Positions 4,600 to 59,142 of a stretch of 64,000 nucleotides of DNA are shown one piece after another. The stretch is from Ectobius pallidus. Taxonomy: Eukaryota > Arthropoda > Insecta > Blattodea > Ectobiidae. Made by a program: the position numbers and the translations under genes. Every line of letters begins with the position of its first letter. The first letter of the stretch is position 1. Under the pieces are notes generated by a model. That model did not search any database and was not told the origin of the DNA. It worked only from the letters and a program-made list of their open reading frames with translations. The stretch covers positions 173,536,825 through 173,600,824 of the forward strand of contig CAXKWD010000006.1 in assembly GCA_964059195.1 (NCBI GenBank). Reading direction: 5' to 3'.

Positions 4600-5237
4600 C
4601 TGGCATGTGCCCGCGGCTTCGCCCGCGATAATTTTTTCAAAAATTAAAAATTAAGAGCATAATAGTTAAATCATTATATTTATTAACACCTAAATCACGT
4701 GGACTACATACCACGATTAGATAGCGTCGCCTGGTAAAAGCGACCTCAGATTCGAGTTCCTTGGCCCAGAATACCCCTGTACAGTGAGTTTCGTCCAAAT
4801 CGAACAATGTTTGACCATATTTAGGGTTGATTATCCTTCTTCCGTGTAGGTTGAAAATGGCATATGTCTGTGAGCCTTGACACTCTAAACAAATGAATCG
4901 TCTAGGATGGCCTAACAAAATCAAGCGATCGCGTTGCTTTTATTTCCAAGGTATGAGGTATGATGACAAAAATAGCCAAAGCCAACTGTAATTGATTTAA
5001 CATTGAAATATATTACTGAAACTGATGCTTCGAAATCGCAAAAAATACACGTTTTTTGCTCATTTTTCACTCATAACTCACGAACGAAAGCGAAAATTAA
5101 AATTCCGGCTTCGAAGTGCACATTCCGACCCTTTAGTCCGCCTATGTATAAAATTTCAGATCTCTGCGTTGAGTAGATTTCGCTGGGCATCGCGGACAGA
5201 CAGACGGTGGACAGACACTTCCTTTTATTAATATAGA
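4600..5237 (-). mobile_element. Helitron A, near full length (638 bp)
   Basis: 3' end (left) carries GTGCCCGCGGCTTCGCCCGCG, with the terminal CTAG changed to CTGG. The 5' end (right) is ...CCTTTTATTAATATAGA followed by T. Both hairpin arms are intact. Confidence 0.85.
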
Positions 5238-5487: not shown

Positions 5488-6115
5488 GGTGAGCACTCTG
5501 ATTGCACAAAATACAGTCTCAGCCATTTTAAGATGAAAATTAAAAAGCTGTTTAATATTAATAATAAAATCTTATAATTGTTTTATCTTTCCATTTGTTT
5601 CAATCAAATTTTCTTCCATTTTTGTGTCTATATATATATTTGCACTAGAGAATTCCTTAGTCAGATAAAGGAATATTATATATTTTATGAAACCTGAAGG
5701 TTCATTGCCGCGCTTACCTGAGCCCGCCATTCAACCCTATTCTGTGCTAACTCCATCCAACCATTCCTAGCAAATCCTACTTCCCTTAAATATATCCTAA
5801 TATTGTCCTCCCACCTACGTCTAGGTCTTCCAAGTGGTCTTTTCCCTTCGGGTCTCCCATTCAATACTTTTGAGATATGTCTTTCCTCTCCCATGTCCAG
5901 CCCATTTCATCCTCAGTGATTTAATTACCCTTACTGTATCTGGTGAAGAGTACAGGTCATGAGCACCCCGATTTCATAAAATACGGTCTCAACCATGTTA
6001 AGATGAAAATTTAAAAAAAAACTGTTTAATATTAATAATAGAAACTTATAGGCTAATTGTTTTGTCTTTTCATTTATTCCATCAAAATTTAAAAAAAAAA
6101 TGTATTGATATAGTT
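5488..6115. repeat. Direct repeats flanking a LINE fragment
   Basis: About 130 bp at 5488-5620 (GAGCACTCTGATTGCACAAAAT...) recurs diverged at 5955-6095 (GAGCACCCCGATTTCATAAAAT...), on either side of the LINE fragment. The right copy has an extra GGCTA at 6051-6055. Bases 5238-5487 are unassigned. Confidence 0.7.
5683..5944 (-). pseudogene. LINE C-terminal fragment (GKRPLGRPRRRWEDNI)
   Basis: Translates on the minus strand to a piece ending ...GKRPLGRPRRRWEDNIRIYLREVGFARNGWMELAQNRVEWRAQVSAAMNL. This is the hallmark tail downstream of reverse transcriptase in common arthropod non-LTR elements. The upstream part (GRVIKS..MKWAGH-like) is frameshifted relative to the open frame at 5685-5894. Related pieces lie at 27935, 47686 and 52595. 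It is a dead 3' fragment with no host function. Confidence 0.8.
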
Positions 6116-8045: not shown

Positions 8046-8288
8046 ATACTAGTGTCCAAAATTAAAGCAACAAACTGAAATTTCTCCTTCCTGTGTCGAC
8101 TATACGAGATATTCACATAAAACCTAAAGCTATGTCCGTACAGTCGTGTTCTGAACTGAAGATGGCATTTCTGTCATCTTACAACCATGTAAACGATGAC
8201 GTCAGTGCACCAATCAAAAGGGAAACTGCAGCATAGTGTTTGTTGCTTAGTCCAATATCAACGTTTGCTGTGTAAACATTTACTGCAG

Positions 8289-9597
8289 GTACAGGACGGC
8301 TCAGAGAAGACGCCTAGAAGATTCTCTTCGGTGGACAGCCATAGGAAGAATGGAAGCAGGACAATCCCAAGCTGATGTGGCCAGATGGCTTAATGTGAAT
8401 CTTTCTGTTGTTTCTCGGATGTGGAAACAGTTTGTAGAGTCCGAAAATGTATCCTGAAGACCAGGGCAAGGACGACGAAGAGTGGCATCAGAAAAACAGG
8501 ACCGTTATTTGGCTGTACTGCCGTAGTACTGAACGACAACTGGCATCTGACCTCACAGCATCCATTGGAGCAGTTTTATCGAAGCAAAGAGTGTATAGAA
8601 GGCTTTGGCAGAAAGGCCTTTATTGTTGGAGATCTGCTACATGACGCATATTCACAGAAGAGTACGTCTAGAGTGGAGTCATTAACAGTGGGCCAATGTT
8701 CTCTTTACAGATGAGTCCAGATTTTGTCTTGAAAATGATTTTCGACGGATTCGCATCTGGAGAGAACCTGGGACACGATTTCGGGAAGGAAACATTGGGG
8801 AAAATTACCGATATGGAGGTGGATCAATAATGGTGTGGAGAGGAATTCTGTTGACTACCCGAACACCTCTTCATGAAGTTCTACGGGGAAATCGGCAAAG
8901 TTTAACTGCTGTCAGGTATCGTGACGAGATCTTGGCACCTCATATGCGGTTGTTTCGAGGTGCTGTGGGCCCAGACTTCGCACTTCTTCTTCTTTCAAGG
9001 ATTAGGCTTTTGCCTGTTCCGATCTCATATATGTTCAGTCCATCTTTTAATTGGTCGTCCAATCGATCTTCGTTCTTCGTCCTTTAATGCTTGTCTAGGT
9101 ATTCTTTCCTCTGGCATGCGATCTAAATGTTTCATCCATTCTTCTCTGTATTTTTCGATCTGATTTAGAAGTGGTTGTACTTGTAATTCTTCTCTAATTT
9201 TCTCGTTTTTGTACATCCCTTGACTGAACAAAATACATCATTTCTGCTGCTTGTATTTTACTTTTATCTTTTTTCTTAACGGTCCATGCTTCACTTCCAT
9301 AATGTATCACTGGTACTGCCATTGCTGAGTAGAATCGTAGTTGTGTTTCTTGCCTTACTTTGTTTTTAAAGGTTCTTTCAATTGTTCCACAAACTGCCTG
9401 AAATTTTTGTATTTTGGTGTTTTGGTGTTTATACTTCTTACTGATGGATGAAAATACTCGTCCTCATAGAGCACAGGCGGTGGACGTTTTCCTGGAAACT
9501 GAAGACATTGCATGCATGGATTGGCCTGCTCGCTCTCCCGATCTGAATCATATAGAGCAAGTTTGGGATGCACTATGGAGACGACTTGCTTCAAAAT
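8289..9597 (+). pseudogene. Tc1-family transposase, disrupted
   Basis: Fragments in order: N-terminal helix-turn-helix region (RWTAIGRMEAGQSQADVARW then LNVNLSVVSRMWKQFV); an RPGQGRRRV stretch like the family GRPR motif; first catalytic Asp in FTDESRFCLENDFRRIRIW; the GGSIMVW motif; after the nested LINE, MDENTRPHRA with the second Asp and SPDLNHIEQVWDALWRR with the third residue Glu, a DD34E-type triad. In-frame stops, frame changes and a roughly 445-bp insertion (8989-9432) mean no active protein. Short open frames at 8421, 8830 and 9414 are pieces of it. Confidence 0.9.
8989..9432 (-). pseudogene. LINE fragment nested in Tc1
   Basis: Minus-strand translation gives RFYSAMAVPVIHYGSEAWTVK, then MYKNEKIREELQVQPLLNQIEKYREEWMKHLDRMPEERIPRQALK and GRPIKRW, the usual post-RT tail of arthropod LINEs, with an AAGAAGAAG-type 3' end. 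A 7-bp direct repeat ACTTCTT at 8982-8988 and 9433-9439 is the likely target duplication. 5'-truncated. Confidence 0.85.
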
Positions 9598-9905
9598 GAG
9601 ATTGATGACATTATTCACAGCATGCCATGCCGTTGTGAGGCCTGTATTGCTGCCAGAGGTGGTCACACCCCATACTGGGCACATTAACGCGTTTTTCTGG
9701 ATGTGAGTGAAAGACATTACGTGTGCAAAAAAAGAAAAAACAGGGCGTTTTGTTTCACTGGTATGCACAAACGTTGCAATAGTTTACTTTCTTTATTCTT
9801 CATATTGTTTATATGTTACTATCACCTGTTTATACTGTTTTGTGGAAAAGTAAACGACCAAAGATGAAATTTCGGTTTGTTGCTGTAATTTTGGACACTA
9901 GTGTA

Positions 9906-11206: not shown

Positions 11207-11318
11207 TATGAACGGGCTGGATATTGTGTCTAGTAAGGAAGCCGCGAGGCTGAAGTGCTTAGGGTAGTCCCAACCCGCCTTCCCCCTTCAGGGGCCAAAT
11301 ACAAGGAAGTAATCCATT

Positions 11319-13693
11319 TTTCTTTGTGATCACAACCCGTGGAAGACAGCTGTATCGTGCAATCACTAATAATAATTTAGAAATCTTATCTACTGGTGAA
11401 CCCACTTACTGGCCTTCTGATACAAGTAAAATACCAGATCTATTGGACTTTTTCATAACAAAGGGTATTTCACAGAATTATCTGCACATAGAATCCCTTT
11501 TTGATTTATCGTCTGATCATTCTCCAGTTATGATGTCATTGAACGCAGAAATAATACTCAGGCAGAGACCTCTCACTCTCTGCAATAGACGAACTGATTG
11601 GGAGTCTTTCCGAGATATCTTACAAGAAAGAATCACATTGAAAATCAGTCTCAAAACATCTGAAGAAATAGAAGACGCAGTAAGCAATTTAACAAAGTCG
11701 ATTCAATCTGCTGCATGGGAAGCCACTCCAAATTTAAATCTAAAACTGCCTCCTGTAAATCAGTACCCATCATGTGTTAAAGAAAAAATAGAAGAACGTC
11801 GTAAGTTAAGAAGAATATGGCAGAACCACAGATATCCTGAAGATAAAAGGCGATTCAACAGAGCTTCCCAAGAACTAAAAAGGCTCATACAAACAATGAA
11901 AAACCAATCCATCCAAGAATATCTGGAAAATCTAACGCCTCTCGAAGCTAGTGATTATTCTTTATGGAGAGCTACAAAGAAATTGAAAAGACCTACAGAC
12001 CCCATACCACCAATTAATAAAGAAGATGGCACTTGGGCTAGAAGCTGTGATGAAAAAGCTATGTTATTTGTCACCCATTTATCACAAGTATTCCAGCCAT
12101 TTCCTTCAATGGCACAAGACGATGAGACTGAGATAGATCAGTACCTTCAAGCCCCTTTCCAAATGTCTCTACCGATTCAGTCAGTATCTCCAAGAGAGGT
12201 CAGAAAAACTATAGAAAATAATTTGAATCCTAATAAGGCTCCTGGTTATGATCTAATAACTGGTCGTATCTTGAAAGAACTGCCATATAAAGCTATGATT
12301 TTTATTGCATTCGTATTTAATGCAATAATAAGGTCGGGGTACTATCCAGGAGCTTGGAAAATATCACAAATTATCCTCATCCATAAAGCAGGAAAACCTC
12401 CAAATGAAGTTAAATCTTACAGACCTATAAGTTTATTGCCTGTTATTTCTAAATTGTTTGAGAAAATACTCCTGGCCAGACTTAAACCACTCCTTACTGA
12501 CATAATTCCCGACCATCAATTTGGATTTCAAGCACAGCACTCAACCATAGAACAAGTGCATAGAGTAACAGATGTCATTCACAATGCATTTGAAAATAAA
12601 GAATACTGTTCAGCAGCATTTCTTGATGTTAGCCAAGCTTTTGATAAAGTATGGCATACTGGATTGCTATTCAAAATAAAAAAGTTCTTACCCCATTCTT
12701 TTTATAGTATTCTGCAATCATACCTAGAAAAAAGATTCTTTCAAGTTAAATTTGAAGACAGCCTATCGGATCTTTACCCTATCAACTCTGGAATTCCACA
12801 AGGAAGTGTCCTTGGTCCTATGTTGTATTTACTGTACACTGCAGATTTGCCCATAGATGTACCGACAACTATAGCCACTTTTGCTGATGATACAGCAGTT
12901 TTAGCAGTCCATGAAGATTTAACCACAGCGTCACAACACATACAAGATTACCTAATTAAATTGGAGACTTGGTTTAAAAAATGGAGAATAAAAATTAATG
13001 AAGATAAGAGTCTACATGTAACTTTCACGTTAAGACGAGGCACTTGCCCTCCAGTAAGAATCAATGGTAAGACTCTACCTCAGTCAGAAGAAGTTAAATA
13101 TTTGGGTATCCATCTTGATCGTCGTTTGACCTGGAAAAAGCATATAAGTACCAAACGCAAACAACTAAATCTAAAATTCAGCAAATTGTATTGGCTCCTA
13201 GGACCCAAGTCAGAGTTGTTAACTACGAACAAACTTCTAATTTACAAATGTATCCTTAAACCAATATGGACATATGGAATTCAACTTTGGGGTACATCAA
13301 GCAACTCCAACATAGAAATTCTAGAACGTTTCCAATCCAAAACGATACGAACTATTGGTAAAATTCCCTGGTACATCAGTAACAAATATATTTATCAAGA
13401 TCTTGAAATACCAACAGTAAAACAGGAAATAAGTAAATACAGTATGACCTACCAGAATCGTCTAAACAAACACCCCAATTCATATGCAGTGAATCTCCTG
13501 AACAATGGGACAAACACGTGTAGGCTCAATAGAAATAGAGTTTTGGACTTGATCTACAGATTTAATTAAATGTCAAACAAATTTGTTATGTTATACAAAT
13601 ATTAGCCACTGGGCTATATTTGTAACATGTTCATTCTTGCATCATTATTACTTATTGTTCATTATAGAACAGATTGTAATGTTGAAGAAAGGT

Positions 13694-13872: not shown

Positions 13873-14552
13873 AATTGAAGAGCCTAGTTCCATAAGGGCG
13901 TAAGGCACAAATCTTTAATTTTTAGTTTTCAACATTTATGCCTTCTCCTATCTCTTAAGTACACAATGAACTATTTGTACTTGTGCCTTAAACCTTTGCT
14001 CAGTTATAAGAACATACACATTCATTCTACTTTATAACAGTTCCAAATAGGCGTAAGGCACACTTCCTATCTGTTATTGAAGTGTGTTTATTAACTGTTT
14101 TTTATTTTCCGCAGTGCTACCATCCAAGCAAATGTTTATAAAAACTGAACTTGCACTTCTGAAGTGTTAACTCCATTAAAAATAGATTGTTTTGCTTATC
14201 TATTGTATTAATTACTATACTGGTATTCACTGGGAAACATGCAATTATCACTGTATAATACAGGTTTTTACTAAAATAAAGTAAAAACAAATAATATGAT
14301 AGAAAGTAAAAAGATTTTGCTACTGTAAAAGTACTTCAGTTTTTGTTTAACATGTTTAGGTACCTCTAGTTGTAAAAAATCCCAATACACTCTACCTTGT
14401 AAATTTTCAGAACACTAATTTAGCCTGTACTTCAAAAGTATATGTTATAAAATTAAACTTTAAACCACCTACTTGTGAGTGGTAACATTGTTTAAAAACA
14501 TCAAGTTTTCTCGAAACTATGTCCTTGTGCCTTACGCCTAGGCCCTTCAATT
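13873..14552. mobile_element. TIR element with GTAAGGCACA repeats
   Basis: AATTGAAGAGCCTAG at the left end and CTAGGCCCTTCAATT at the right end are inverted. GCGTAAGGCACA occurs inside both ends and again at about 14051. No coding capacity. The target duplication is unclear; bases 13749-13872 are unassigned. Confidence 0.65.
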
Positions 14553-15890: not shown

Positions 15891-17105
15891 TTTTTGGTTG
15901 GCAACGTTTCGGATTTTTCGATAATTTGTGAATGTACTAAATTAAATATCGGAAAGTTACAAAGTTTTGGAGCTTCTTTTAAAATATTTTCGTAATTTTG
16001 TGGATATACAAAATTAAATATACAAATGTTGAAATTTTGGTGCTAAACGGTCCTTTCAAAATTCAAGTTTGAGTACGAAGAACGATTCAAAAGAAATATT
16101 TCGGGATTTTAAAATATATTTTAGTAAATATGTGAAAATATCGATGTTGAAATTTTGGCGCCAAAGGTCTTATCAAGATCAAAGTTTAAGTATAAAGGAC
16201 AGTAAAAGAATAGGCCTAATTTACAGAGTTTTGACATTTCTTTTAAAATACTTTCGTAATTTTGTGAATATACAAAATTAAATATAAAAATGTTGAAATT
16301 TTGGTGCTAAACGGTCCTTTCAAAATTAAAGTTTAAGTACGAAGGACAAAGAAATATTTTCATTACTATATTTCGGAATTAAAAAAAAAAATATATTAGC
16401 AAATATGTGAATATATATTTGTATATATACAAAATTAAATATCGAATGATGAAATTGTGTCGCCAAAAGTCTTATCGAAGTACAAAGGACAGTAAAAGAA
16501 TAGTTTACAGAGTTTTGAAATTTCTTTTAAAATACTTTCGTAATTTTGTGAATAGGCTATACAAAATTAAATATAAAAAAGTTGAAATTTTGGTGGTAAA
16601 CGGTCATTTCAAAATTCAAGTTTGAGTACGAAGGACGATTCAGAAGAAATATTTCGGTTACTGAGTTTTGGAATTTGTTTTAAAATATTTTCGTAATTTT
16701 CCAAAATTAGTAAATAATATTTTTGGTTGGCAATGTTTCGGAATTTGCGTTAATTTGTGAATATACAAAATTAAAAATAGGAAAGTTACAATTTTAGTGC
16801 TAAACTGTTTTTACAATATACAAAATTAAATATAAAAAAAGTTTAAATTTTGGTGCTGAAGTTTGAGTACGAATGACAATGAAATATTTTGATTACAATA
16901 TTTTGGAATTTTTAAAAAAATATATTAGTAAATATGTGAATATATAAAATTAAATATCGATATGATGAAATTTTGGCGCCAAAGGTCTTTTCAAGAACGA
17001 AGTTTAAGTAGAAAGGACAGTAAAAGAATAGCTTGCAGAGTTTCGGAATTTCTTTTTAAAATATATTCGTAACTTTGTTATTATACAAAATTAGAAATAA
17101 AGACA
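15891..17105. repeat. Degenerate satellite-like array
   Basis: Units alternate between a GTTGAAATTTTGGTGCTAAA..GGTCCTTTC type and a TTTTGGCGCCAAAGGTCTT type, linked by TACAAAATTAAATAT and TTTCGTAATTTTGTGAATA. The higher-order spacing is about 255-290 bp (starts near 16007, 16270, 16560, 16816). Short frames at 16069 and 16407 are by-products. Confidence 0.8.
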
Positions 17106-17458
17106 TAACCAAGTTCGAAGTTCACAATTATGCAAGGTTTTAACTTACAGCTAAAAGGTACAGTTTCAAAGTAACTTTTCTCCAAGAAAATAAACTCTTC
17201 AAAAAAGTAGAGTTTTAAATTACTGAATAGACTTTTTCCGATCCCACTAATAAATAGTCATTTTAATTTAATGTACCTTCAAGATTTCCTATTAAAGAAG
17301 GTAGAAAATACTACAATTATTAAAAGCAGAAGAATTTAGTTAATGACCATAAATTTACAATTTGGTGGCTAAATCAGCCTGCTGCGAAGAATGTGTACCA
17401 AAACTGATTTCGTCACTATTTTTTGGAAAATGAGATTTTATGTCATGTTATAGTGAAA
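17106..17458. other. Unassigned sequence
   Basis: AT-rich sequence, no feature seen. Confidence 0.5.
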
Positions 17459-18323
17459 CTAGCTTAAAAGACCCGGCGTCGCCCGGGTTTTGTATCTTGT
17501 AATTGGAAATTAGCTTATGAAGGATTTTCAATTTTAAATTCTAGGTCCTTATATAGGCATTTATGATTTGAAATAGGAAGAACGACTTATTACACTCAAA
17601 CTATTCCCTCAGAAAACGCTTGATATAATTTTTTATGGCTCATAGAGGATCTAGAATTTTGCATCCCATCGCTTGTACAGTGCACAGCAAGCCTGGTAGA
17701 GGTTTAAATAAGAAGAAACAGAAATTCCTGTAACATAAAATTGTAATATCGAGGCGGGAAATTTCCCACTCTTATGTTACCATAAAGCCGTTTTGGAGAT
17801 GAAATTAAACAGAAAGCATTATCACTTTCATACTTTTCTCTCCAAAAACCTGCCATATAATATAATAATATACACATTACCATACCTCGTTTTGTTTTCT
17901 CTATGTCCAGGGTAGAGAAAGTTATGTGATTCCATTATTTTAGTGGATTTCATTCTGTAATATTTATTTATAACATGAATTATTTTGATAACTTCTCTTA
18001 TTTGTCAAAAGTGCATTTCAATTGTTTTTTCCAAGCCCACCTGATACCATTTGGCAACAATATATTCTGTGATTTGGAATGGATAATTCTATGTAAAAAG
18101 GGATTAAGTATTTTCAAAAACATTTAATTTTTGGCATTTAGAATCAGAATTTTTCTAAATCCTTTCTTAGTGAGCACCTACATTATGAAACGAAGGTACT
18201 GTCAAAATTCCAAGTCTCTACCTGTTATAGTTTAGGCTGTACGTTGATTCCTGTCATTCAGTCAATCAGTCAGTCAGTCATTCATTCAGTCAGTCAGGAC
18301 AAAGCCTTTTATATAGATAGAGA
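17459..18323 (-). mobile_element. Helitron B, full length (865 bp)
   Basis: Left (3') end CTAGCTTAAAAGACCCGG with the CCCGGCGTCGCCCGGG hairpin; right (5') end ...GCCTTTTATATAGATAGAGA followed by T. Inserted between A (17458) and T (18324). A CAGTCAGTCATT tandem lies just inside the 5' end. No Rep/helicase coding. Confidence 0.95.
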
Positions 18324-19149: not shown

Positions 19150-19262
19150 AAAATTCCTTTGACACTGGGATTTGAACCCAGCACCTTAGGCTATCCGTGC
19201 CAATGCTCTACCAACTAAGCTAAGCCAGAGTTCAGTTCACTTCACATCGCCAGATGGAACCT
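19150..19262 (-). mobile_element. tRNA-derived SINE, head region, copy 1
   Basis: On the minus strand: GAAGTGAACTCTGGCTTAGC, A box TTAGCTTAGTTGGTAGAGCA, then B box GGGTTCAAATCCC. The same unit and upstream flank occur at 45050-45152. An anticodon-like TTGGC-loop-GCCTA stem is present, but the loop lacks the universal T before the anticodon, so this is a SINE head rather than a working tRNA. Confidence 0.75.
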
Positions 19263-24544: not shown

Positions 24545-25685
24545 CTAATAAAATCAGGTTAAACTGATATAACAAAGTGCCATAATGCTTTCGTTTAATC
24601 AGTGATAATTGCAATTATGATATTCATAAAACAGGTTATTTTTGTAATCGATTTCAGAGTTAAGCTCCAGATCGATTCATTAAGCAGGGCTTACGGAAGA
24701 ACAAAGGTCTAGTTTGATAAGCATATGTGAAGAAATATATGGGCAGTGTTATTTGTCAAAGCTAACTGTACTGCTACTTCCAAAGCCGTACATGAACACT
24801 GTAAAACAATATGTTGTCATGAGAACTGCATTTGATAAATACTGTATAATATGTTACCATAAAATAGGCACTAAATTGGGCATTACTCCGGTACCGGTCA
24901 ACAGATTTGATTCAAAATCAATAGGCTTCTTACCACGGACGTTATAAATGTGTATACCAAGTTTCTTGAAAATCCGATAAAGCGTATTTGAGTTATCGCG
25001 TCTTTTGTTATATATTACCATAAAAATAGGCACTAAATTGGTCATTACTCCGGTACCGGTCATCAGATTTCGTTCAAAATCAATAGACTTCTTCCCATGG
25101 ACGTTATAAATTCGTATACCAAGTTTCATGAAAATCCGATAAAGCGTATTTGAGTTATCGCGTCTTTTGTTATATATTACCATAAAAATAGGCACTAAAT
25201 TGGGCATTACTCCGGTACCGGTCATCAGATTTCGTTCAAAATCAATAGACTTCTTCCCATGGACGTTATAAATTCGTATACCAAATTTCAAGAAAATCCG
25301 ATAAAGCGTATTTGAGTTATCGCGTCTTTTGTTATATATTACCATAAAAATAGGCACTAAATTGGGCATTACTCCGGTACCGGTCATCAGATTTCGTTCA
25401 AAATCAATAGACTTCTTCCCATGGACGTTATAAATTCGTATACCAAGTTTCATGAAAATCCGATAAAGCGTATTTGAGTTATCGCGTCTTTTGTTATATA
25501 TTACCATAAAAATAGGCACTAAATTGGGCATTACTCCGGTACCGGTCATCAGATTTCGTTCAAAATCAATAAACTTCTTCCCATGGATGTTATATTTTCG
25601 TATACCAAGTTTCATGAAAATCCGATAAAGCGTATTTGAGTTATCGCGCATACAGACATTTTCCCGTCCACCACACAATCTCAGA
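24545..25685 (-). mobile_element. Family C copy with internal tandem expansion
   Basis: Starts AAATCAGGTTAAACTGATATA / AAGTGCCATAATGC, includes the GAGTTAAGCTCC block, and ends CCCGTCCACCACACAATCTC..CATTCTG. Its central block is amplified (next entry). Confidence 0.85.
24872..25655 (-). repeat. 162-bp tandem array, about five units
   Basis: CGTCTTTTG marks recur at 24999, 25161, 25323 and 25485, an exact 162-bp period, with near-identical units. Because 162 is 54 codons, a minus-strand frame stays open for 286 codons (24854-25714) as five copies of a DNSNTLYRIF...MVIYNKR unit. I treat this as repeat sequence, not a gene: no family match, and single copies elsewhere are clearly part of a dispersed repeat. 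Confidence 0.9.
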
Positions 25686-26064: not shown

Positions 26065-26335
26065 AGATTCTAAAACAATATGTCGTCCTGATAACTGAGT
26101 TGCATTTGATAAATTCTTTCTAATATATTGCCATTAAAATAGGCACTAAATTGGGCATTACTCCGGTACCGGTCAACCGATTTGGTCCAATATCAATAGG
26201 CTTCTTCCCATGGACATTATAAATGTGTATACCAAGTTTCATGTAGGCCTAAATCTGATAAAGCGAATTTGATTTATGGCGCGTACAGGCATGGAGAAAC
26301 AGTCATTTTCCCGTCCCACGATATTTGTGGGTCCT
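26065..26335 (-). mobile_element. Family C fragment
   Basis: Contains the GGCACTAAATTGGGCATTAC, GGTACCGGTCAACCG and CTTCTTCCCATGGAC blocks and ends at CATTTTCCCGTCC. TAGGCCTA replaces two bases at 26244-26251. Confidence 0.85.
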
Positions 26336-32083: not shown

Positions 32084-32172
32084 TAAAAGCTCTTCAATGA
32101 ACTATAATAGAATATTAAGTTAAAAGCTGTGAGATTTTAAGTAGTTAAAAAATGACTTTTTTATTATTTCAG

Positions 32173-33004
32173 CATAGAGACAGACATTTCCCGGGGCGAT
32201 TATGGACCACCAGCCCAACACCAGCCAGAAGGAGTGTGGAAGAAGAAACTCGTGTGGAAAGAAGAGTGGAAAAAGGTGTGGAAAACAGCTTCCAAAGTGA
32301 TATGGAAACCAGACTGGAAGAAGATACAGGTCCCAGTGTGGAAAGAAGTAAAGATACCTGTATGGAAAGAAGTTAAGGTATCTGAATGGAAGAAAGTACA
32401 AAAGCCAGTGTGGAAAGAAATCCAAGTACCAGCGTGGAAAGAAATCCAAGTACCTGAATGGAAGAAAGTGTACAAGCCAATCTGGAAGGAAATAAAGGTA
32501 CCAGTATGGAAAGAAAATCAAGTACCTGATTGGAAGAAGATCTGGGTACCAGAATGGCAGAAGGTATGGGAAACAACCCATGACGAATGGGGACACGAAC
32601 ACAAGGTCTGGAAGAAGAAACTCGTGTGGAAACCACAGTGGAAGAAGGTGTGGAAGACAGAAAAGAAACTTGTCTGGGTACCAGAGAAGAAACTTGAGTG
32701 GAAAGAAGAGTGGAAACAAGCGTGGAAAACAGAGAAGAAACAAATCTGGGTAAAGGACAAGAAACTGATCTGGAAAGAAGAATGGGTTCAGGTGTGGAAG
32801 ACAGGAAAGAAACTTGAATGGGTACCAGACAAGAAACTCGAGTGGAAAACGGAGTGGAAACAGATCTGGGTACCAGTATGGAAGCAGTACCAAGTACCAG
32901 AGTGGAAAAAAGTGTGGAAACCAGTCTGGGAAAAAGTTTGGGTACCAATTCATCACGAAGAACATCACGAGGAACATCACGAAGAACATCACGGCTGGAA
33001 CTGA
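32173..33004 (+). CDS. Trp/Lys-repeat structural protein, terminal exon
   Basis: The only convincing host gene here. A splice acceptor with a strong pyrimidine tract (TTTTTTATTATTTCAG, ending 32172) opens an exon that reads IETDISRGDYGPPAQHQPEGVWKKKLVW... for 276 residues to a stop at 33002-33004. About 40 Trp and very many Lys form units such as VPVWKE, VPEWKK, KKVWK and KKLEWK every 4-8 residues. The block VWKKKLVWK..WKKVWKT occurs twice (near residues 21 and 135), indicating an internal duplication. The end is (HHEE)3HHGWN, a possible metal-binding or pH-sensitive tail. No hydrophobic segment is present, so any signal peptide must be in upstream exons; the exon starts with the third base of a codon. 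Composition suggests an extracellular or cuticle-type matrix protein. A Vajk-like or other low-complexity insect cuticle family is a guess. Long frames on the other strand are shadows. Confidence 0.8.
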
Positions 33005-34789: not shown

Positions 34790-35255
34790 ATTTTTTTTTG
34801 CACTCCTTAGCTAGTAAGTGGTACTTACGAACGTTGTTTACATGGATCGTAAGTTGACATTCCCACACAGTCTTGTTGCTAAGGGCGGTTGCGATGAGGT
34901 TAAATTACTTACGGTCCAAGCGCCACATCATAATTCATTACGATACACTTCATAATACAAGTCTTTATGGACAAAGCCCCCAGGACAAATATTCGGTTCC
35001 CATAACAACAAACACATGCGAATCACTTTCTGAAATAAACATCTATTTTCAAGAATGTATTTGCATAATATTTTCACAATTAATATAATTAAATTGATAT
35101 AAATAATCATCGTGCAAAAAATAGCATGCAACACACGGGCCGTAAAGGCATTTACGGGTCTCGAAAACTTAAAAACCCTCGGCTGCGCCTCGGGTTTTCA
35201 ATCTGTTTCCTCGACCCGTAAACGTGCCTTACGGCACTTGTATCGCAATATACTA
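34790..35255 (+). repeat. Dispersed foldback element F, copy 1
   Basis: From TTTTTTTTTGCACTCCTTAG through CATAACAACAAACACATGCG to the terminal hairpin zone, where GGGCCGTAAAGGCATTTACG faces CGACCCGTAAACGTGCC. Inverted copy at 45562-45998. A 71-codon frame inside is not a gene. Confidence 0.8.
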
Positions 35256-35367: not shown

Positions 35368-36919
35368 GGTAATCCCAAGAGAGTTGACGAACCTATCGAT
35401 ATATTCACGACTGCGCAGCAGGAGCGAATTTATCTGATGAAACTCGTCAATTGAGTTGGATTTTTTTAAGACTATTCCATGAATAAAAATGTAACGGATT
35501 ATACAAATAATAATTACTTTCGTGCTTTGTTGCATAAAAACAAAACTAACAGCTGCGAGATCACGGCTTACTATGAATCAACCATCCATGAATCGATTCG
35601 AGTTATCATGTTGTGACCAGTGGTACCAATGGTGCATACAACAACAGTTAACTTCATTCAGGTAAGCTAACAGCAGAACAGAATAAAAGCTCACGAATAG
35701 AAAATGTGTTTGTAAAGAATGTACACTTATACTATTGCAATTTCCAAACAAGTTATGTTGTATAAAATAATCTGTTTTCGTGGTGCTTAATGGCAGAATG
35801 TGATGTATTAATCACAGCACATTGGTGCTTAGGCTGCATCTCCAGTAACGAGCTGACAATTTTATCAGGTAAAATCCCTTCCTCATATTGATACAAGCAT
35901 TTTATAAGATAAACAATCGTGATTGGTCTACATCCGAGGAATTGCTCAACATTATTAGTCAATAACGTGGGATATGGATGGTTGATTCATAGTATGCCGT
36001 GATCTTGCAGCTGTTAGTTTTATTCTTATACAACAAAGCACGAAAATAATTATTATTTGCATAATCTACTCTTATACAATTCAACGGCCCTAAATAGCGT
36101 GCTCACTCCCTCACTTCGCGAGACATCGGGTATACTCGGCGATGTTCGTCTCTCGCAGTCTAAACTTTCATGACGACTACAAAATTAGGAAGGAAAACAG
36201 TTTCTTTATTATATAAGGCCTAAGTGAAATGAACACAATGAACAAATATTCTAATTTTATTTTTACTTACAATTTTCATAGCTCTGACCCACAAACATTT
36301 TTAATAATCTACCAGTGTAATTTTCTTAAAAATCCTGGAGTCAATGAATAATGGCGGGCGAAGCCGGGGGCAACAGCTGTAAAATATTGATGGTTTTATC
36401 TCTTAAAATATCGCTGATAATAATAATCCAAACAAACCATTCCTTCCCTTCAAACATTATATAATTTCTGAAAATTACACTGAATTGATGAAATTAAATT
36501 CACATCATATTCATGTCAATAAACAGCTGAGAAACAATACGTATTATGTGTTCACAGGTTCTTTGGAACTGCATAATCGATTCTGATATAGTTTTCCCAG
36601 GGGGCGCTTTCATGTCGTGGAATGTACTCTAAAGCAGGAATTTTAGCTGTTTCATTAATTATTAATGGCTTAGTTTATGAATGATTCGCGTGCAAGTGTT
36701 AATAAATATAATGCTTTAATAATTATTATACTCTTAATTTTTAATTTTTTAAAGAATTATCGTGGCGAAGCCACGGGCACCTCCTAGTCCGTTACAATTT
36801 TATTCATGGAATAGTCTTAATAAATCCAACTCGAGTTGACGAGTTACATCAGACAAATTAGCTCCTGCTACGCAGTCGTGAATATATATAGGCTACTCGT
36901 CAACTCTCGTGGGATTACC
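35368..36919. mobile_element. Long-TIR element (TSD TA) split by a Helitron
   Basis: Left arm from GGTAATCCCAAGAGAGTTGACGA; right arm ends TCAACTCTCGTGGGATTACC; TA on both sides. The arms pair for about 250 bp (TTAAGACTATTCCATGAATA; AACTAACAGCTGC; ATGAATCAACCATCCAT). The right arm is interrupted at 36065-36787. Without the Helitron the element is about 829 bp with a short non-coding centre. Confidence 0.9.
36065..36787 (+). mobile_element. Helitron A-prime, 723 bp, in a known empty site
   Basis: 5' TCTACTCTTATACAATTCAA and 3' GCGAAGCCACGGGCACCTCC then TAG. The flanks join as GCATAA|TCCGTTAC, which matches the uninterrupted left TIR arm (reverse complement GTATAATCCGTTAC). The insertion therefore fell exactly between A and T with no target duplication. 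Confidence 0.96.
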
Positions 36920-36921
36920 TA

Positions 36922-37540
36922 TGATAAAATAGCATCCTTGAGTTTCTAGGAAGAATATTAGGCTATAAGATCTGCGATCGTTGTTAGTCGATATACGAGA
37001 AATTGTTAAACGTTATTGGTCAACATGAAATACACGTCATACGAATGGAATAGTCAGCAAAAATCATGAATAATTTAATGCTCTTTGAACGGTCTTTTTT
37101 GAAGTATGGAAGTTGTATGCAAAGAAACCTACATAAGCAGATAATTATACTATGTGGAGTACTGTATCCGAAATAGAAACTGGGTCAATTGTCCTTGTCA
37201 TTCATTTCCTTTGTTATATTCAAACATGCAACGAGCTAGAAATGTGTGCTTTACAGGTAAACAACACATCTGTTATTATGGGAATGACAACGGAATTTGG
37301 CCGAACTTTTACCAGTTTTCTCAGCATTATTACGTATGACATATAAAATTCCTTCTTGTCTGTGATGAATTGGTTAGAAGCCACACTGGCACTCGTTTTT
37401 ACAAGTGGCCCTAGAATAGTTATTTACATATGTATGTATGTACGAAGGTAAAATAAAATTTAACAAAAATGCATAATTTCAAGAAGAATTTCAAGTACAA
37501 TATATATATAGAGGCCTACACACACATTTATACACATAAT
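36922..37540. other. Unassigned sequence
   Basis: Two overlapping frames of about 62 codons at 37152-37346, no motif. No repeat match noticed. Confidence 0.4.
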
Positions 37541-38273: not shown

Positions 38274-40475
38274 TCTATATTAATAAAAGGAAGTGTCTGT
38301 CCTCCGTCTGTCTGTCTTCCGTCTGTCTGTCTTCCGTCTGTCTGTCCGCGATGCCCAGCGAAATCTACTGAACGCAGAGATCTGAAATTTTATACATAGG
38401 CGGACTAAAGGGTCGGAATGTGCACCTCGAAGCCGGAATTTTAATTTTCGCTTTAGTTCGTGAGTTATGAGTGAAAAACGGGCAGAAAACGTGTATTTTT
38501 TGCGATTTCGAAGCATGAGTTTTCAGTAATACAAATCAATTACACTAGGCTTTGGCTATTTTTGTCAAACCTTCGACATAAAAGCATCGCAATCTCTTGA
38601 ATGTTGTAGCTCATGCTGGTCGATTCATTTGTTTTTAATGTCAAGGCACGCAAACATAATGTGAAATTTTCAACCTACACCGGAGAGGATTATTATTATT
38701 ATTATTATAGGGATAATCAATATTAGCCTAAATATGGTCAAACGTTGTTCGATTTGGACGAAACTCACTATACAGGGGTTTTCTGGACCAAGGAACTCGA
38801 ATCTGAGGTCGCTTTTACCAGGTGACGCTATCTAATCGTGATATGTAGTCCACGTGATTTAGGTGTTAATAAATATAATGATTTAACTATTATGCTCTTA
38901 ATTTTTAATTTTTTTAATAATTATCGCGGGCGAAGCCGCGGTGCTCATGCCATCTTAAAATAATAAAAGGACGTGTTTGTCTGTCTGTCCACGATGCCCA
39001 GCGAAATCTACTGAACGCAGAGATCTGAAATTTTAAACATAGATGGGCTGAAAGGTGGGCGAATGCGCATCGAAGCCGGATTTTTTATTTTAGCTTTCGT
39101 TCGCGAGTTGTGAGTGAAAAACTGGCAGAAAACGTGATTTTAGCGCTGTCGAAGCATCAGATTTCAGTAATACATTTCAATGTCAAATCAATTGCAGTTG
39201 GCTTTGGCTATTTTTGTCATACTGTGGTAATAAAAGCATCGCGATCGCTAGAATGTTGTAAGCCCACGCTGGTCGATTCATTTGTTTAGAATGTCAAGGC
39301 CCGTAGACATATGAAATTTTCAACCTACACGGAAGAGGGGTAATCAACATAGACCTAAATATGGTTAAACATCGTTCGATTTGGACTAAACTCACTATAC
39401 AGGGATTTTCTGGGCCAAGGAACTCGAATCTGAGATCGCTTTTACCAGGCGACGCTATCTAATCGTGACATGTAGTCCACGTGATTTAGGTGTTAATAAA
39501 TATAATGATTTAACTATTATGCTCTTAATTTTTAATTCTTGAAATAATTATCGCGGGCGATCGCTTGATTTTGTAAGTCCATCCTGGACGATTCATTTAT
39601 TTAGAATATCAAGTCCCGAAGACATGAAATTTTCAACCTACACGGAAGAGGGATAATCAATATAGGCCTAAATATGGTCAAACATTGTTCGATTTGGACG
39701 AAACTGACTGTACAGAGGTATTCTGGGCCAAGGAACTCGAATCTGAGGTCGCTTTTACCAGGGGACGCTACCTAATCGTGGAATGCACTCCACGTGATTT
39801 AGGTGTTAATAATTATAATTTGAAATAATTATCGCGGGGGAAGCCGCGGGCACATGCGGGCACATGCTGTTTGTCTGTCTGTCCACGATGCCCATCGAAA
39901 TCTACTGAACGCAAAGATCTGAAAATTTAAAGATAGATGGACTGAAAGGTGGGCGAATGCACCTCGAAGCCGAATTTTTAATTTTAGCTTTCGTTCGCGA
40001 GTTATGAGTAAAAAAACTGGCAGAAAACGTGATTTTAGCGCTGTCGAAGCATCAGATTTCAGTAATACATTTCAATGTCAAATCAATTGCAGTTGGCTTT
40101 GGCTATTTTTGTCATACTGTGGTAATAAAAGCATCGCGATCGCTAGAATGTTGTAAGCCCACGCTGGTCGATTCATTTGTTTAGAATGTTAAGGCCCGTA
40201 GACATATTAAATTTTCAACCAACACTGAAGAGGGATAATCAATATAGGCCTAAATACTGTATGGTGAAACATTGTTTGATTTGAACGAAACTATACCAGG
40301 GTTTTCTGGGCCAAGCAACTCGAATCTGAGGTCGCTTTTACCAGGCGACGCTATCTAATCGTGGTATGTAGTCCACGTGATTTAGGTGTTAATAATTATA
40401 ATGATTTAACTATTATGCTCTTAATTTTTAATTTTTGAAATAATTATCGCGGGCGAAGCCGCGGGCACATGCTAG
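38274..40475 (+). mobile_element. Head-to-tail array of four Helitron A units
   Basis: Unit 1 starts A|TCTATATTAATAAAAGG and ends in a worn GCCGCGG at about 38953. Unit 2 runs about 38958-39555 (TAATAAAAGGACG...GCGGGCGATCG). Unit 3, about 39556-39860, lacks the 5' half. Unit 4 starts near 39866 (TGTTTGTCTGTCTGTCC) and ends CGGGCACATGCTAG|T at 40475. All are in the same orientation, with 3' ends next to the following 5' parts. Units 2 and 4 are nearly identical over long stretches (ATTTTAGCGCTGTCGAAGCA). Confidence 0.9.
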
Positions 40476-45049: not shown

Positions 45050-45152
45050 CGTCTGGCGCTGTGAAGTGAACTCTGGCTTAGCTCAGTTGGTAGAGCATTG
45101 GCACGGATAGCCAAAGGTACTGGGTTCAAATCCTAGGGTCAGGAGAATTTTT
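45050..45152 (+). mobile_element. tRNA-derived SINE, head region, copy 2
   Basis: GTGAAGTGAACTCTGGCTTAG, A box TTAGCTCAGTTGGTAGAGCA, B box GGGTTCAAATCCTAG, then CAGGAGAATTTTTCTCC. A five-pair TTGGC/GCCAA anticodon-like stem encloses a loop with C where T is invariant. Same family as 19150-19262. A decayed tRNA gene is the alternative. Confidence 0.75.
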
Positions 45153-45561: not shown

Positions 45562-45998
45562 ATAAATTGCGATACAAGTGCCGCAAGCGGTGCATACGGA
45601 TCGAGGAAAGAGTTTTTTTCAATTTCCGAGATCCGTTATGCGCTTACGGCACGAGTATCGCATGCTATTTTTTGCACGATGATTATTTATATCAATTTAT
45701 TTATATTAATTGACATATTAGCTGAAAATATTATGTATATAGGCCTACACTATTGAAGATGGATGTTATATTTCAGAAAGTGATTCGCATGTGTTTGTTG
45801 TTATGGGAACCGAATATTTGTCCTGGGGGGGGGCCTTGTCCATAAAGGCTTGTATTATGATGAGTGCCGTAAGTAAATTCTTACCGCACGGAAATTTGTT
45901 TTGTTTCCATAGCAACAAGATTGCGTGCGGGAATGTCAACTTACGATCCACGGCAACAATATTCGTAAGTACCACTAATTAGTTAAGGAGTGCAAAAA
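45562..45998 (-). repeat. Dispersed foldback element F, copy 2
   Basis: The left end folds: TTGCGATACAAGTGCCGC faces GCTTACGGCACGAGTATCGC. It then matches copy 1 in reverse (TGCACGATGATTATTTATAT; GATTCGCATGTGTTTGTTG; AAGGAGTGCAAAAAGG). GGCCTA at 45742-45747 is absent from copy 1. Confidence 0.8.
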
Positions 45999-46480: not shown

Positions 46481-47474
46481 CAGGTAGGGAGGAAAAAAGC
46501 GGACCGACTCTTATAGCTTATTTTGGAGCCTTGTGATACGTAAATAAATGTAAGAGATGTAACGGAAACGTTTGTTTTCACAAGAATGCAAATTACGTGA
46601 AATAAGTAAACAGTCGACACTAGAACAAATCTACTCTTATACAATTCAACGGCCCGAAATAGCGTGCTTGCTCGCCCGCTTCGTGAGACATCGGGTATAC
46701 TCGGCGATGTTCGTCTCTTGCAGTCTAAACTTTCATGACGACTACAAAATTAGGAAGGAAAACCGTTTCTTTATTATATAAGGCCTAAGTGAAATGAACA
46801 CAATGAACAAGTATTCTAATTTTATTTTTACTTACAATTTTCATAGCTCTGAACCACAAACACTTCTATTAAACTGGAGTCAAATATTAATAATGGCGGG
46901 CGAAACCGCGGGCACCACCTATTGATAGTTTAACCCTGTAAAGTATCGCGGACACTAAAAATGCAAACAAACTACTCCTTCCCTTGAAGAATTATACAAT
47001 TTCTGAAAATTACACTGAATTTATCAAATAAAATTCACATCATATTCATCTGTCAACAAACAGTTGAGAAACAATAGTATTATCCACCGCCGTCTCGAGA
47101 ATTATACAAGAGTATTACAGTCTAGAAGGCAGTGGTTCACAGCTTTGGAACTGCATAATCGAATCTGTTTTCCAAAGCCGCACTTTCTAATCGTGGAATG
47201 TACTCTAAATCCGGAATTTTAGCTGTTTCATTAATTATTAATGGTTTAGTTTATGAATGATTCGCGTGCAAGTGTTAGCCTAATAAATATAATGCTTTAA
47301 TAATTATTATTCTCTTAATTTTTAATTTGTTCAATTAATTATCGTGGGCGAAGCCGCGGGCATCGGCTAGTTTCAATACATTCCCTGCAATCCTGTGAAT
47401 GCCGCTAGGCATGCGCAGTGGCTCATATCGGCAACTTAGATATTTTAGTCGGTCCGCTTTTTTTCCCCTACCTG
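46481..47474. mobile_element. TA-target TIR element split by a Helitron
   Basis: CAGGTAGGGAGGAAAAAAGC at left and CTTTTTTTCCCCTACCTG at right, with TA at 46479-46480 and 47475-47476. The subterminal GGACCGAC is inverted too. About 253 bp without the inserted Helitron. Bases 46318-46478 are unassigned. Confidence 0.9.
46630..47370 (+). mobile_element. Helitron A-prime, 741 bp, second known empty site
   Basis: 5' TCTACTCTTATACAATTCAA, 3' GCGAAGCCGCGGGCATCGGC then TAG. Flanks GAACAAA|TTTCAATAC match the uninterrupted relative at 7160-7175 (reverse complement GAATAAATTTCAATAC). GCCTA at 47278-47282 is extra relative to the other A-prime copies. Confidence 0.96.
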
Positions 47475-48305: not shown

Positions 48306-48832
48306 AAAAATAAAATCAGGTAAACTGGCGTTACAAAGTGCCAGAATGATTTTGTTTAATCAGTAATGATTTCCACTAAGATATGCAGAAAACAAGTTAT
48401 TTTTGTTATCGATTTAAGCTCCAGATCGATTCATTAAGCAGAGCTTACGGAAGAACAAAGGTCTAGTTTGATAAGGATATGTAGTGTCATTCGTCAAAGC
48501 TAACTGCATTGCAGCTTCCAAAGCCGTATATGAATACTATAAAAAAATATGCTGTCGTGATTTGCATTTGATAAATTCTTTCTAATAATTATATTACCAA
48601 CAAATAGAGACTAAATTGGGCATTACTTCGGTACCGGTCAACCGGTTTGGCCCCAAGTCAATAGGCTTCTTCCCAAGGACGTTATAAATGAGTATACCAA
48701 ATTTCATTAAAATCCGATTAAGCATATTTGAGTTATCGCGCGTATAGACACACGGACAGACAGGCGAACGGATAGACATTTCCCCATCGACCACACAATC
48801 TCAGAAAATAGGCCTACCATTCTGGTACATAA
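48306..48832 (-). mobile_element. Family C, near full length
   Basis: AAATCAGGTAAACTGGCGTT / AAAGTGCCAGAATG at left; CCACACAATCTCAGAAAATA and CCATTCTGGTAC at right, which are partly inverted. GGCCTA (48811-48816) interrupts the usual GTACCATTCTGG end. Confidence 0.85.
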
Positions 48833-56863: not shown

Positions 56864-57615
56864 TCTCTATATATATAAAAGGCTTTGTCCTGACTGACAG
56901 GAATCAACGTAGAGCCTAAACTCTAATAGGTAGAGACTTGGAAATTTGACAGTACCTTCGTTTCATGGTGTAGGTGCTCACTAAGAAAGGATTTTGAAAT
57001 ATTTTGATTTTAAATGCCAAAAATCAAATGTTTTTGAGAATACTTAATCCCTTTTTACACAGAATTGTGAAACTCAAATCACAGTTCACATGACAACAGT
57101 GTATTGTTGGCATAGGTATCAGGTACGTTTGGAAATAATTGAAATGGGACTTTGACGAAACTACTGATATAATGCATTGCTGTAATTAAATATTGAAGAT
57201 GAAATCTATATTATTAGGCTATATCGCAGGTTTAAGGGGAGGGAAGTATAAAAGTGAAATTGATTTACTTTTTAATATCATCCCCGAAACGGTTGTATGG
57301 TAACATGAGAGTGAGAAATAAAATATTCCGCAAAGACAATACTATTTTATGATACCAGAATTTCTATTTCTTCTTATTTTAACCCCTACCAGGCTTGGTG
57401 TGTAGAAGCGATGGGATACAAAATTCTACATCCTCTATGAGCCATAAAAAGCTATATCAAGCGTTTTCAGCGGGAATAGTTTAGTGAGATAAGTCGTTCT
57501 TCTTCATTTCAAATTTTCAATACGTATATAAGGACCTAGAATTTGAAAGTCGGAAGTCCTTCATAAGTTAATTTTGAATTACAAAACCCGGGCGACGCCG
57601 GGCCTTTTAAGCTAG
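56864..57615 (+). mobile_element. Helitron B, 752 bp
   Basis: A|TCTCTATATATATAAAAGG to CCCGGGCGACGCCGGGCC and TTTTAAGCTAG|T. The CTGA tandem has contracted to one unit. Confidence 0.95.
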
Positions 57616-57884: not shown

Positions 57885-58268
57885 TGAGATACATAATTTA
57901 CTCAAATATAAATTTCAATAGCTTCTCTAATTTTCAAAGTCCCATTTCAAAGTCTTGTTTCATTTATTTCCAAAGTCTTGTTTCATTTATTTCCAAAGCC
58001 TTATGTAAAGACTGCAAACAATACACTGTTGCCATGTGAACTGTGATTTGGATTTGATAATTCTGTGTAAAAAGGGATTAAGTATTCTAAAAAACATTGG
58101 ATTTTTGGCTTTTAAAATCAAAATTTTACAAAATTCTTTCTTAGTGAGCACTTACATTACGAAACGAAGGTACTGTCAAAATTCCAAGTCTCTACCTATT
58201 ATAGTTTAGGCTCTACGTTGATTCTCTGTCATTAAATTAGTTATAAGTCAGTCAGGACAAAGCCCTTC
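57885..58268 (-). mobile_element. Helitron B 5' part, abutting the next copy
   Basis: Runs from AGCTTCTCTAATTTTC through TTCTTTCTTAGTGAGCAC and GTCTCTACCTATTATAGTTT to CAGTCAGGACAAAGCCCTTC. It ends head to head with the copy that begins at 58270. A TCTTGTTTCATTTATTTCC duplication lies at 57953-57990. Confidence 0.85.
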
Positions 58269-58269
58269 A

Positions 58270-59142
58270 TCTCTATATATATAAAAGGCTTTGTCCTGAC
58301 TGACTGACTGAATGAATGACTGACTGACTGACTGATTGACTGAATGACAGGAATCAACGTACAGCCTAAACTATAACAGGTAGAGACTTGGAATTTTGAC
58401 AGTACCTTCGTTTCATAATGTAGGTGCTCACTAAGAAAGGATTTTGAAAAATTCTGATTCTAAATGCCAAAAATTAAATGTTTTTGAAAATAGTTAATCC
58501 CTTTTTACATAGAATTATCAATTCCAAATCACAGAATATATTGTTGCCAAATGGTATCAGATGGGCTTGGAAAAAACAAATGAAATGCACTTTTGACAAA
58601 TAAGAGAAGTTATCAAAATAATTCATGTTATAAATAAATATTACAGAATGAAATCCACTAAAATAATGGAATCACATAACTTTCTCTACCCTGGACATAG
58701 AGAAAACAAAACGAGGTATGGTAATGTGTATATTATTATATTATATCGCAGGTTTTTGGAGAGAAAAGTATGAAAGTGATAATGCTTTCTGTTTAATTTC
58801 ATCCGCAAAACGGCTTTATGGTAACATAAGAGTGGGAAATTTCCCGCCTCGATATTACAATTTTATGTTACAGGAATTTCTGTTTCTTCTTATTTAAACC
58901 TCTACCAGGCTTGCTGTGCACTGTACAAGCGATGGGATGCAAAATTCTAGATCCTCTATGAGCCATAAAAAACTATATCAAGCGTTTTCTGAGGGAATAG
59001 TTTGAGTGTAATAAGTCGTTCTTCCTATTTCAAATTATAAATGCCTATATAAGGACCTAGAATTTAAAATTGAAAATCCTTCATAACTTAATTTCCAATT
59101 ACAAAATACAAAACCCGGGCGACGCCGGGTCTTTTAAGCTAG
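58270..59142 (+). mobile_element. Helitron B, full length (873 bp)
   Basis: A|TCTCTATATATATAAAAGG ... CCCGGGCGACGCCGGGTC, TTTTAAGCTAG|T. Highly similar to 17459-18323 and to the outer part of 29434-30749. Confidence 0.96.

Follow-up and report, generated by a model that had tools for sequence, protein, structure and literature searches.

The excision footprints of Tc1/mariner transposons (Tc1, Sleeping Beauty, Minos and ZB) share a simple anatomy, in which a core of 2-4 nt is bordered by TA on both sides; more than one core length is possible, and the scars lie where no element resides. One account gives the length of Tc1/mariner footprints as 2-4 bp (PMC7913693), and another reports a footprint of 6 bp for Minos (PMC10992017). 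Along the same lines, the old scars of Stowaway MITEs described in Triticeae introns consist of 1-4 bp of the repeat end held between two TAs at otherwise empty sites (PMC1925063). A further kind of short insert is known from mammalian break sites, which have been reported to receive telomeric repeats, with a duplicated flank at a few loci (PMC7215372).

Here we describe, in a 64 kb stretch of Ectobius pallidus DNA (hereafter the window), a set of short insertions with a comparable anatomy: an empty TA in some repeat copies stands against a filled TA-GGCC-TA or TA-GGC-TA in others, with the flank kept in the clean cases. Both cores, GGCC (4 nt) and GGC/GCC (3 nt), fall inside the 2-4 nt footprint range. 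Unlike the scars of the Tc1/mariner elements named above, these have a core, GGC(C), that matches no element established in the window, come as only two products and at high density, and are here read from the sequence. In the Stowaway report the scars belong to a known element at one locus, whereas here many loci and no known element are involved (PMC1925063). Likewise, the longer product, TAGGCCTA, reads as TTAGG head to head, and the short interstitial telomeric insertions resemble ours as short inserts at break sites; as that source describes them, they differ in that here there is no multi-repeat insert and no TTA preference, and the flank is kept in the clean cases (PMC7215372).

On the + strand of the whole window, TAGGCCTA is found 20 times, TAGGCTA 13 times and TAGCCTA 7 times. 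In this AT-rich sequence (34% G+C, with many repeats), the 20 occurrences compare with expectations of 0.59 under an order-1 and 1.23 under an order-3 Markov model, and with a mean of 0.54 in 100 dinucleotide shuffles, the largest of which gave 3 and none of which reached 20. By z-score, TAGGCCTA ranks 5th among 20,723 8-mer classes, preceded by one poly-C word and three TAA-microsatellite words. TAGGCTA, taken on both strands, occurs 20 times against 5.72 in the shuffles (largest 14) and 7.42 by the order-3 model; its class ranks 66th of 7,716 7-mer classes by z-score, so that by counts alone the 7-mer stands out far less. The initial annotation had held that TAGGCCTA and its variants are strikingly common, and had proposed a comparison with composition; for the window this is borne out, the counts standing well above expectation both for the 8-mer (20 against 0.54-0.59) and for the 7-mers (20 against 5.7).

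Among the 16 palindromes of the form TA-NNNN-TA, a clear excess is seen only for TAGGCCTA and for the AT-only words TATATATA and TATTAATA. The one-substitution neighbours of TAGGCCTA sum to 25 against 16 expected. Neither TAGGTA (41 observed; 30.8 by order-1, 43.5 by order-3) nor TAGCTA (16 observed; 13.9 and 11.0, respectively) has an excess like that of TAGGCCTA, and TAGGCGCCTA has a count of zero in the window. TAGGCGTA, too, exceeds its expectation, with 5 occurrences against 0.85. Of the 40 motif sites made up by TAGGCCTA together with TAGGCTA and TAGCCTA, about 6 are expected by chance, and the excess comes to about 34 sites in 64 kb.

The window was aligned with itself and each of the 40 motif sites was inspected. 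Thirteen have an aligned copy across them, and 25 are without a usable copy within the window. Seven of the 13 are longer than the other copies by exactly 5 or 6 bases; in this self-alignment, the seven copy-to-copy differences cited in the initial annotation are all real. At four sites (6049, 16553, 45740 and 47276) the gain lies exactly at TA, and at the other three (16211, 26244 and 48809) the longer copy carries one extra substitution at or beside the TA. Among the cases that had been called clear, the word was slightly generous for 16213 (site 16211) and 48811 (48809), given the extra substitution; at 26244, which had been described as less clean, an A-to-T change is needed to create the TA.

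TAGGCTA at 16553-16559 (+) is a 5 bp gain at TA, with five aligned rows lacking the motif, four of them showing the plain TA of an empty site, and with 0 mismatches in the best flanks. The same repeat family carries TAGGCCTA at another position, 16211-16218, where bases 16213-16218 are inserted relative to copies near 16500 and beyond (6 bp longer); the base after TA is A here and G in two other copies, and both of the good rows lack the motif (another two align poorly). In a family that we take to be Helitron-like, TAGGCTA on the - strand (TAGCCTA on the +) at 47276-47282 likewise adds 5 bp at TA; the six aligned rows all lack it, and the best flanks again have 0 mismatches. Family C was hit at two different positions. 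One 6 bp gain of TAGGCCTA, at 48809-48816 in a family end, is missing from two copies, which have G before TA where this copy has A; the other, at 26244-26251, is missing from eight rows (four of which come from one tandem array), and the other copies mostly read ATGAAAATC, so that the A-to-T change was first required. The copies of family C in 25000-25648 of the window end every 162 bases (25000, 25162, 25324, 25486 and 25648), a tandem array within a dispersed family. The two remaining sites each have a single other copy, and gain or loss fits both: with TAGGCCTA at 45740-45747, the copy exceeds the one at 35060 by 6 bp at TA (5 mismatches in 24 flanking bases), and with TAGGCTA at 6049-6055 (+), the excess over the copy at 5575 is 5 bp, again at TA.

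These seven sites fall in five mutually non-aligning groups (6049; 16211 with 16553; 26244 with 48809; 45740; and 47276). Since the motif is absent from all of at least two other copies at 16553, 47276, 26244, 16211 and 48809, it was gained at these five, which makes unlikely there the possibility, raised in the same annotation, that the motif was ancestral and then lost. Outside the 13 aligned sites, TAGGCTA at 36959-36965 (+) is probably another 5 bp gained at TA, the comparison being with 35870, in a sixth repeat group: when the sequence was searched in its empty-site form, the alignment ran ungapped through the site, with 70% identity across 94 columns (E 1e-9), and when the motif was included, the search gave no alignment that spans the site.

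The rest of the 13 aligned sites comprise four copies of one family, the site at 19187 and an ambiguous one at 36889. In that family the motif is common property: TAGGCCTA stands at 39663-39670, and also at 40245 and 42767, with an altered form at 38724, most copies carrying the motif or a close form of it; a further copy, at about 4932-5217, is shorter by 5 bp, which gain or loss could explain. Outside the 13, TAGGCTA at 57215-57221 (+) is a same-length replacement with no net gain, ATTAGGCTATA standing against ATTATATTATA in three other copies. A plain counter-example is TAGGCTA at 19187-19193 (+), which arose by substitution in tRNA-like sequence, the other copy reading CTTTGGCTATCC at equal length. 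The two tRNA-like copies (19157-19229 on the - strand and 45072-45144 on the + strand) are called as tRNA-Ser (GGA) and are about 87% alike including their flanks; the pair is possibly a tRNA-derived repeat. A long open frame at 11263-13569 (768 codons without a stop) contains a reverse transcriptase domain, and none of the 40 motif sites lies inside it.

What share of all small length changes do these gains represent? A list of well-flanked 5-6 bp differences between repeat copies, drawn up without regard to the motif, has 31 entries, of which 7 are the cited insertions; the motif events, which spread over several rotation classes, were grouped by context by hand, and three further rows of the 31 (38720, 39349 and 39662) come from the family that shares the motif. 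The other 5-6 bp inserts that recur either do so among the copies of one family or consist of a T-rich 6 bp word (15975 and 44264), and short inserts of 3-4 bp recur too. Among 119 differences of 3-9 bp, 17 take the form TA-X-TA against TA, with X being GGCC, GGC or GCC in 7 and A in 4, while the other 6 each have a word of their own; one of the 7 rows (38720) belongs to the family with the shared motif, which leaves 6 gains. As a control, the same bounded form was counted with AA (22), AT (23) and TT (28). TA-bounded differences are therefore no commoner than the others, and the special feature is the recurring core rather than TA duplication as such. In this DNA there also exists another insertion of the same shape, shown by TACTGTA at 40255-40261, a TA-CTG-TA gain in which three aligned rows have AAATATGG and this one AAATACTGTATGG; it is shaped like a footprint of a CAG-ended Tc1-like element, CAG/CTG being the core of the Tc1/Sleeping Beauty type. 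The classification of indels across the repeat copies of the window thus agrees with what the annotation had anticipated, and its reading of a recurrent process, not specific to one family, is supported by the exact 8-mer excess, the 7 of 31 differences, the five unrelated groups and the derived state wherever at least two other copies are at hand.

The sequence context of the insertions was tested on 36 of the 40 sites, three copies of the shared-motif family and 19187 being left out, and not all of the 36 are demonstrated insertions. The context R-TA-Y is found at 18 of the 36, against 24% of the TAs of the window (one-sided p=0.0007, uncorrected for the eight flank positions inspected). A purine precedes TA in 53 of 72 flanks, against a background of 50% (p=8e-5, eight positions inspected and likewise uncorrected), while C before TA is rare (2 flanks against 10.4 expected) and T is found in 17 against 25.4 expected. 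TTAA occurs at 1 of 36 sites against 12% (one-sided p=0.06). Flank positions -2 to -8 gave no clear signal. The roughly 6 chance sites among the 40 dilute whatever signal the context holds. Such a context, palindromic about the TA, suggests an enzyme working symmetrically at that dinucleotide.

Regarding age, the excess of once-mutated versions of TAGGCCTA is about 9, beside about 19 intact. So few decayed versions (25 neighbours against 16 expected, beside 20 intact words) point to a fairly recent agent, because long activity would equalise mutated and intact forms; this suggests, on small numbers, activity no older than about a tenth of a substitution per site. The density of the motif shows no clear trend with the age of the repeats, judged by best-copy identity: the class at 90% identity or more (15.7 kb) holds 7 sites, that at 85-90% (8.0 kb) another 7, that at 80-85% (2.2 kb) 1 and that below (2.0 kb) none, the other 25 lying in the rest. 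Set beside about 1400 estimated substitutions in the aligned repeats, the seven gains correspond to about one per few hundred substitutions, a high rate; both the estimate and the rate hold to an order of magnitude only.

Taken as a whole, a fixed insert with TA on both sides, which recurs in unrelated repeats, is derived at five sites and sits in a preferred context, is what the window contains. In our view the best explanation, at about even odds, is that a TA-targeting transposon of the Tc1/mariner kind, with terminal inverted repeats that start with 5'-GGC or 5'-GGCC, left these insertions as footprints of its excision. Such an element would enter at TA, favouring R-TA-Y, and duplicate the TA. 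On its exit, the transposase would place its second-strand cut 3-4 nt within the element, and each flank would be left with TA followed by a GGC(C) 3' overhang. A pair of GGCC overhangs is self-complementary and would be joined as TAGGCCTA; a pair of GGC overhangs would meet with one G-G mismatch, the repair of which would give TAGGCTA or TAGCCTA, that is, a single product seen on either strand. A cut-and-paste cycle of this kind would proceed without many resident copies, the scars outnumbering the copies of the element, so that a modest number of active copies could suffice, and fixed scars would pile up at the rate of germ-line excision. The identity of the transposase, the sequence of its ends, the pairing of the overhangs and the excision rate are the conjectural parts of this proposal.

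Several results may be counted in its favour. If the ends must pair through GGC(C), TAGGTA, TAGCTA and TAGGCGCCTA would be expected to show no comparable excess, as is the case; the bias for R-TA-Y and for a purine before TA fits an enzyme symmetric at TA; and the TA-CTG-TA gain at 40255 has the same shape with another core. On the other side, about 34 excess sites in 64 kb would need a sustained rate of excision, the site at 57215 has no net gain, the density follows no clear age trend, and the TA-bounded class as such is not in excess. We know of no Tc1/mariner family with GGCC tips. Furthermore, experimental footprints are reported to vary beyond two products (PMC3770610). The initial annotation had left the mechanism among templated repair, a micro-mobile unit and an end-joining bias; it had been right about the recurrence, and footprints, which it did not name, fit better, given the flanking TAs, a fixed core of 3-4 nt and the palindromic R-TA-Y context. 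A general end-joining bias is unlikely, the insert being fixed and the flank kept in the clean cases; a templated process or a micro-mobile unit may nonetheless be the cause.

The 64 kb window was searched for TA-bordered inverted repeats having tips of the GG type, and no element with GGC-type inverted ends next to TA was established. Most of the GG-tipped inverted pairs listed have neighbouring matches and seem internal to longer inverted pairs. The weak candidate at 58207-58368 has GGC tips beside TA on both sides and was set aside, as its inverted match continues outward (58142-58433). Another weak GGC-ended candidate, at 14048-14541, has TA followed by GGCGTAAGGCACA at one end and the reverse complement followed by TA at the other; its first 13 tip bases match exactly and the interval is without a second copy in the window. 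GGCGTAAGGCACA stands at 13897, 14050 and 14527, two copies being direct and one inverted, all inside 650 bases, and the further copy of the tip at 13897 suggests that 14048-14541 may instead be a local repeat. Inspected by eye, no repeat border beside TAGG or CCTA has GGC ends on both sides; such borders are Helitron-like ends, motif sites and others (3317, 19145, 49592 and 62295, for instance).

An insertion at 8047-9904 has inverted ends around ACTAGTGTCCAAAATT with TA adjoining both, and contains a piece of open reading frame (8686-9087) that by eye resembles a Tc1-type transposase and is without a Pfam match. The family with the terminal pattern CGGGCGACGCCGGG...AAGCTAGT, for which we assume the name Helitron-like, has ends at 17458, 29434, 57616 and 59143, and its copy at 57207 lacks a 73-base stretch found at 17873-17945 and 58656-58728. 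Exact Helitron-like end patterns from the window had no match in viral contigs (two patterns) or in prokaryote genome contigs (one pattern), and a search of viral contigs with the reverse transcriptase of the window confirmed nothing. Viral contigs with three TAGGCCTA at short range gave 11 loci, which were discarded as parallels, 10 of the 11 having all their sites in one cluster, unlike the scatter in the window; one of the loci (L010) has three more TAGGCCTA outside its cluster. The open reading frame at 32156-33004 has eight stretches of DUF4816 (PF16086), of unknown function, and the opposite strand is open too; among its 33 listed relatives, those named by organism are insects, for example thrips, dragonflies and flies.

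The main rival to excision is a new kind of templated micro-insertion, possible but rather unlikely in our judgement, in which an enzyme cuts or nicks at R-TA-Y and the 3' end of the TA, after priming on a short RNA or DNA template of fixed sequence, gains GGCC(TA) and rejoins via the repeated TA, no transposon being excised. That no source element was established within the window speaks for it, as do two closely related products, their high density and the flank kept in the clean cases; neither an enzyme nor a template is known for it, and the shortage of decayed copies, if it means a recent onset, would suit a mobile agent better than a housekeeping process. Moreover, TA around a core of 2-4 nt is, in the accounts cited, already the signature of a transposon (PMC7913693, PMC1925063). 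The corresponding statement about the lineage, that a transposon-free process adds GGCC(TA) or GGC(TA) at R-TA-Y from a fixed template and makes about a fifth of the 5-6 bp changes between repeat copies, seems to us doubtful. Far less probable is healing by telomerase, in which TA ends would gain GG from a TTAGG-type enzyme and two such ends would be joined as TAGG/CCTA. This idea takes TAGGCCTA to be, as we assume, a head-to-head join of insect TTAGG repeats, and the telomeric repeats received at mammalian break sites would be its precedent (PMC7215372). The window has no multi-repeat units (TTAGGCCTAA, TAGGTTAGG and TTAGGTTAGG all count 0) and no TTA register, with TTAA at 1 of 36 sites against 12% (one-sided p=0.06) and T before TA in 17 of 72 flanks against 25.4; the one-sided product TAGGTA does not exceed its order-3 expectation, and the horse cases in the same report most often lose flank (PMC7215372).

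Three further readings were weighed. Selection or drive for TAGGCCTA as a protein-binding site, the excess then being made of kept sites, would agree with an exact word that is strongly over-represented among neighbours near expectation; we regard it as very improbable, given that selection alone does not create 5-6 bp gains across five unrelated repeat groups, that two lengths occur, and that the pattern of decay would fit recent insertion without selection. An artefact of library or assembly, such as the remnant of a short adapter or linker, is about as improbable: ligation could in principle yield a short palindrome at many places, but the context bias, the two related lengths and the motif common to the copies of one family all argue against it. 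A published Blattella germanica primer also holds TAGGCCTA, a single anecdote and possibly from a different species (PMC7650587). The least credible of all is that TAGGCCTA was ancestral in the repeats and that the short copies lost exactly 5-6 bp. The family with the motif in most copies and one shorter copy would allow it, and 6049 and 45740 can be polarised either way; elsewhere the motif stands in one copy and is absent from five (16553), six (47276) and eight (26244) other rows.

Literature searches, mostly judged from listings, found no description of TAGGCCTA insertions or of this pattern. Footprints as such are already known, and what seems new here is the occurrence of footprint-like scars of one sequence at high density. 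If footprints they are, one DNA transposon has scarred this window about every two kilobases and a sizeable share of its small insertions would be the work of that element; the scars would also record past activity and choice of target, even where no copy remains. Furthermore, any genome can be screened for the signature through counts of its TA-X-TA words and of the gains in its repeats, and the long-term rate of transposon excision would become measurable. Should no element stand behind the scars, the genome would be inserting a fixed sequence at TA by an unknown route, which would amount to a new kind of mutation. If they are the excision scars of an unseen jumping gene, a single mobile element would be a notable source of small mutations.
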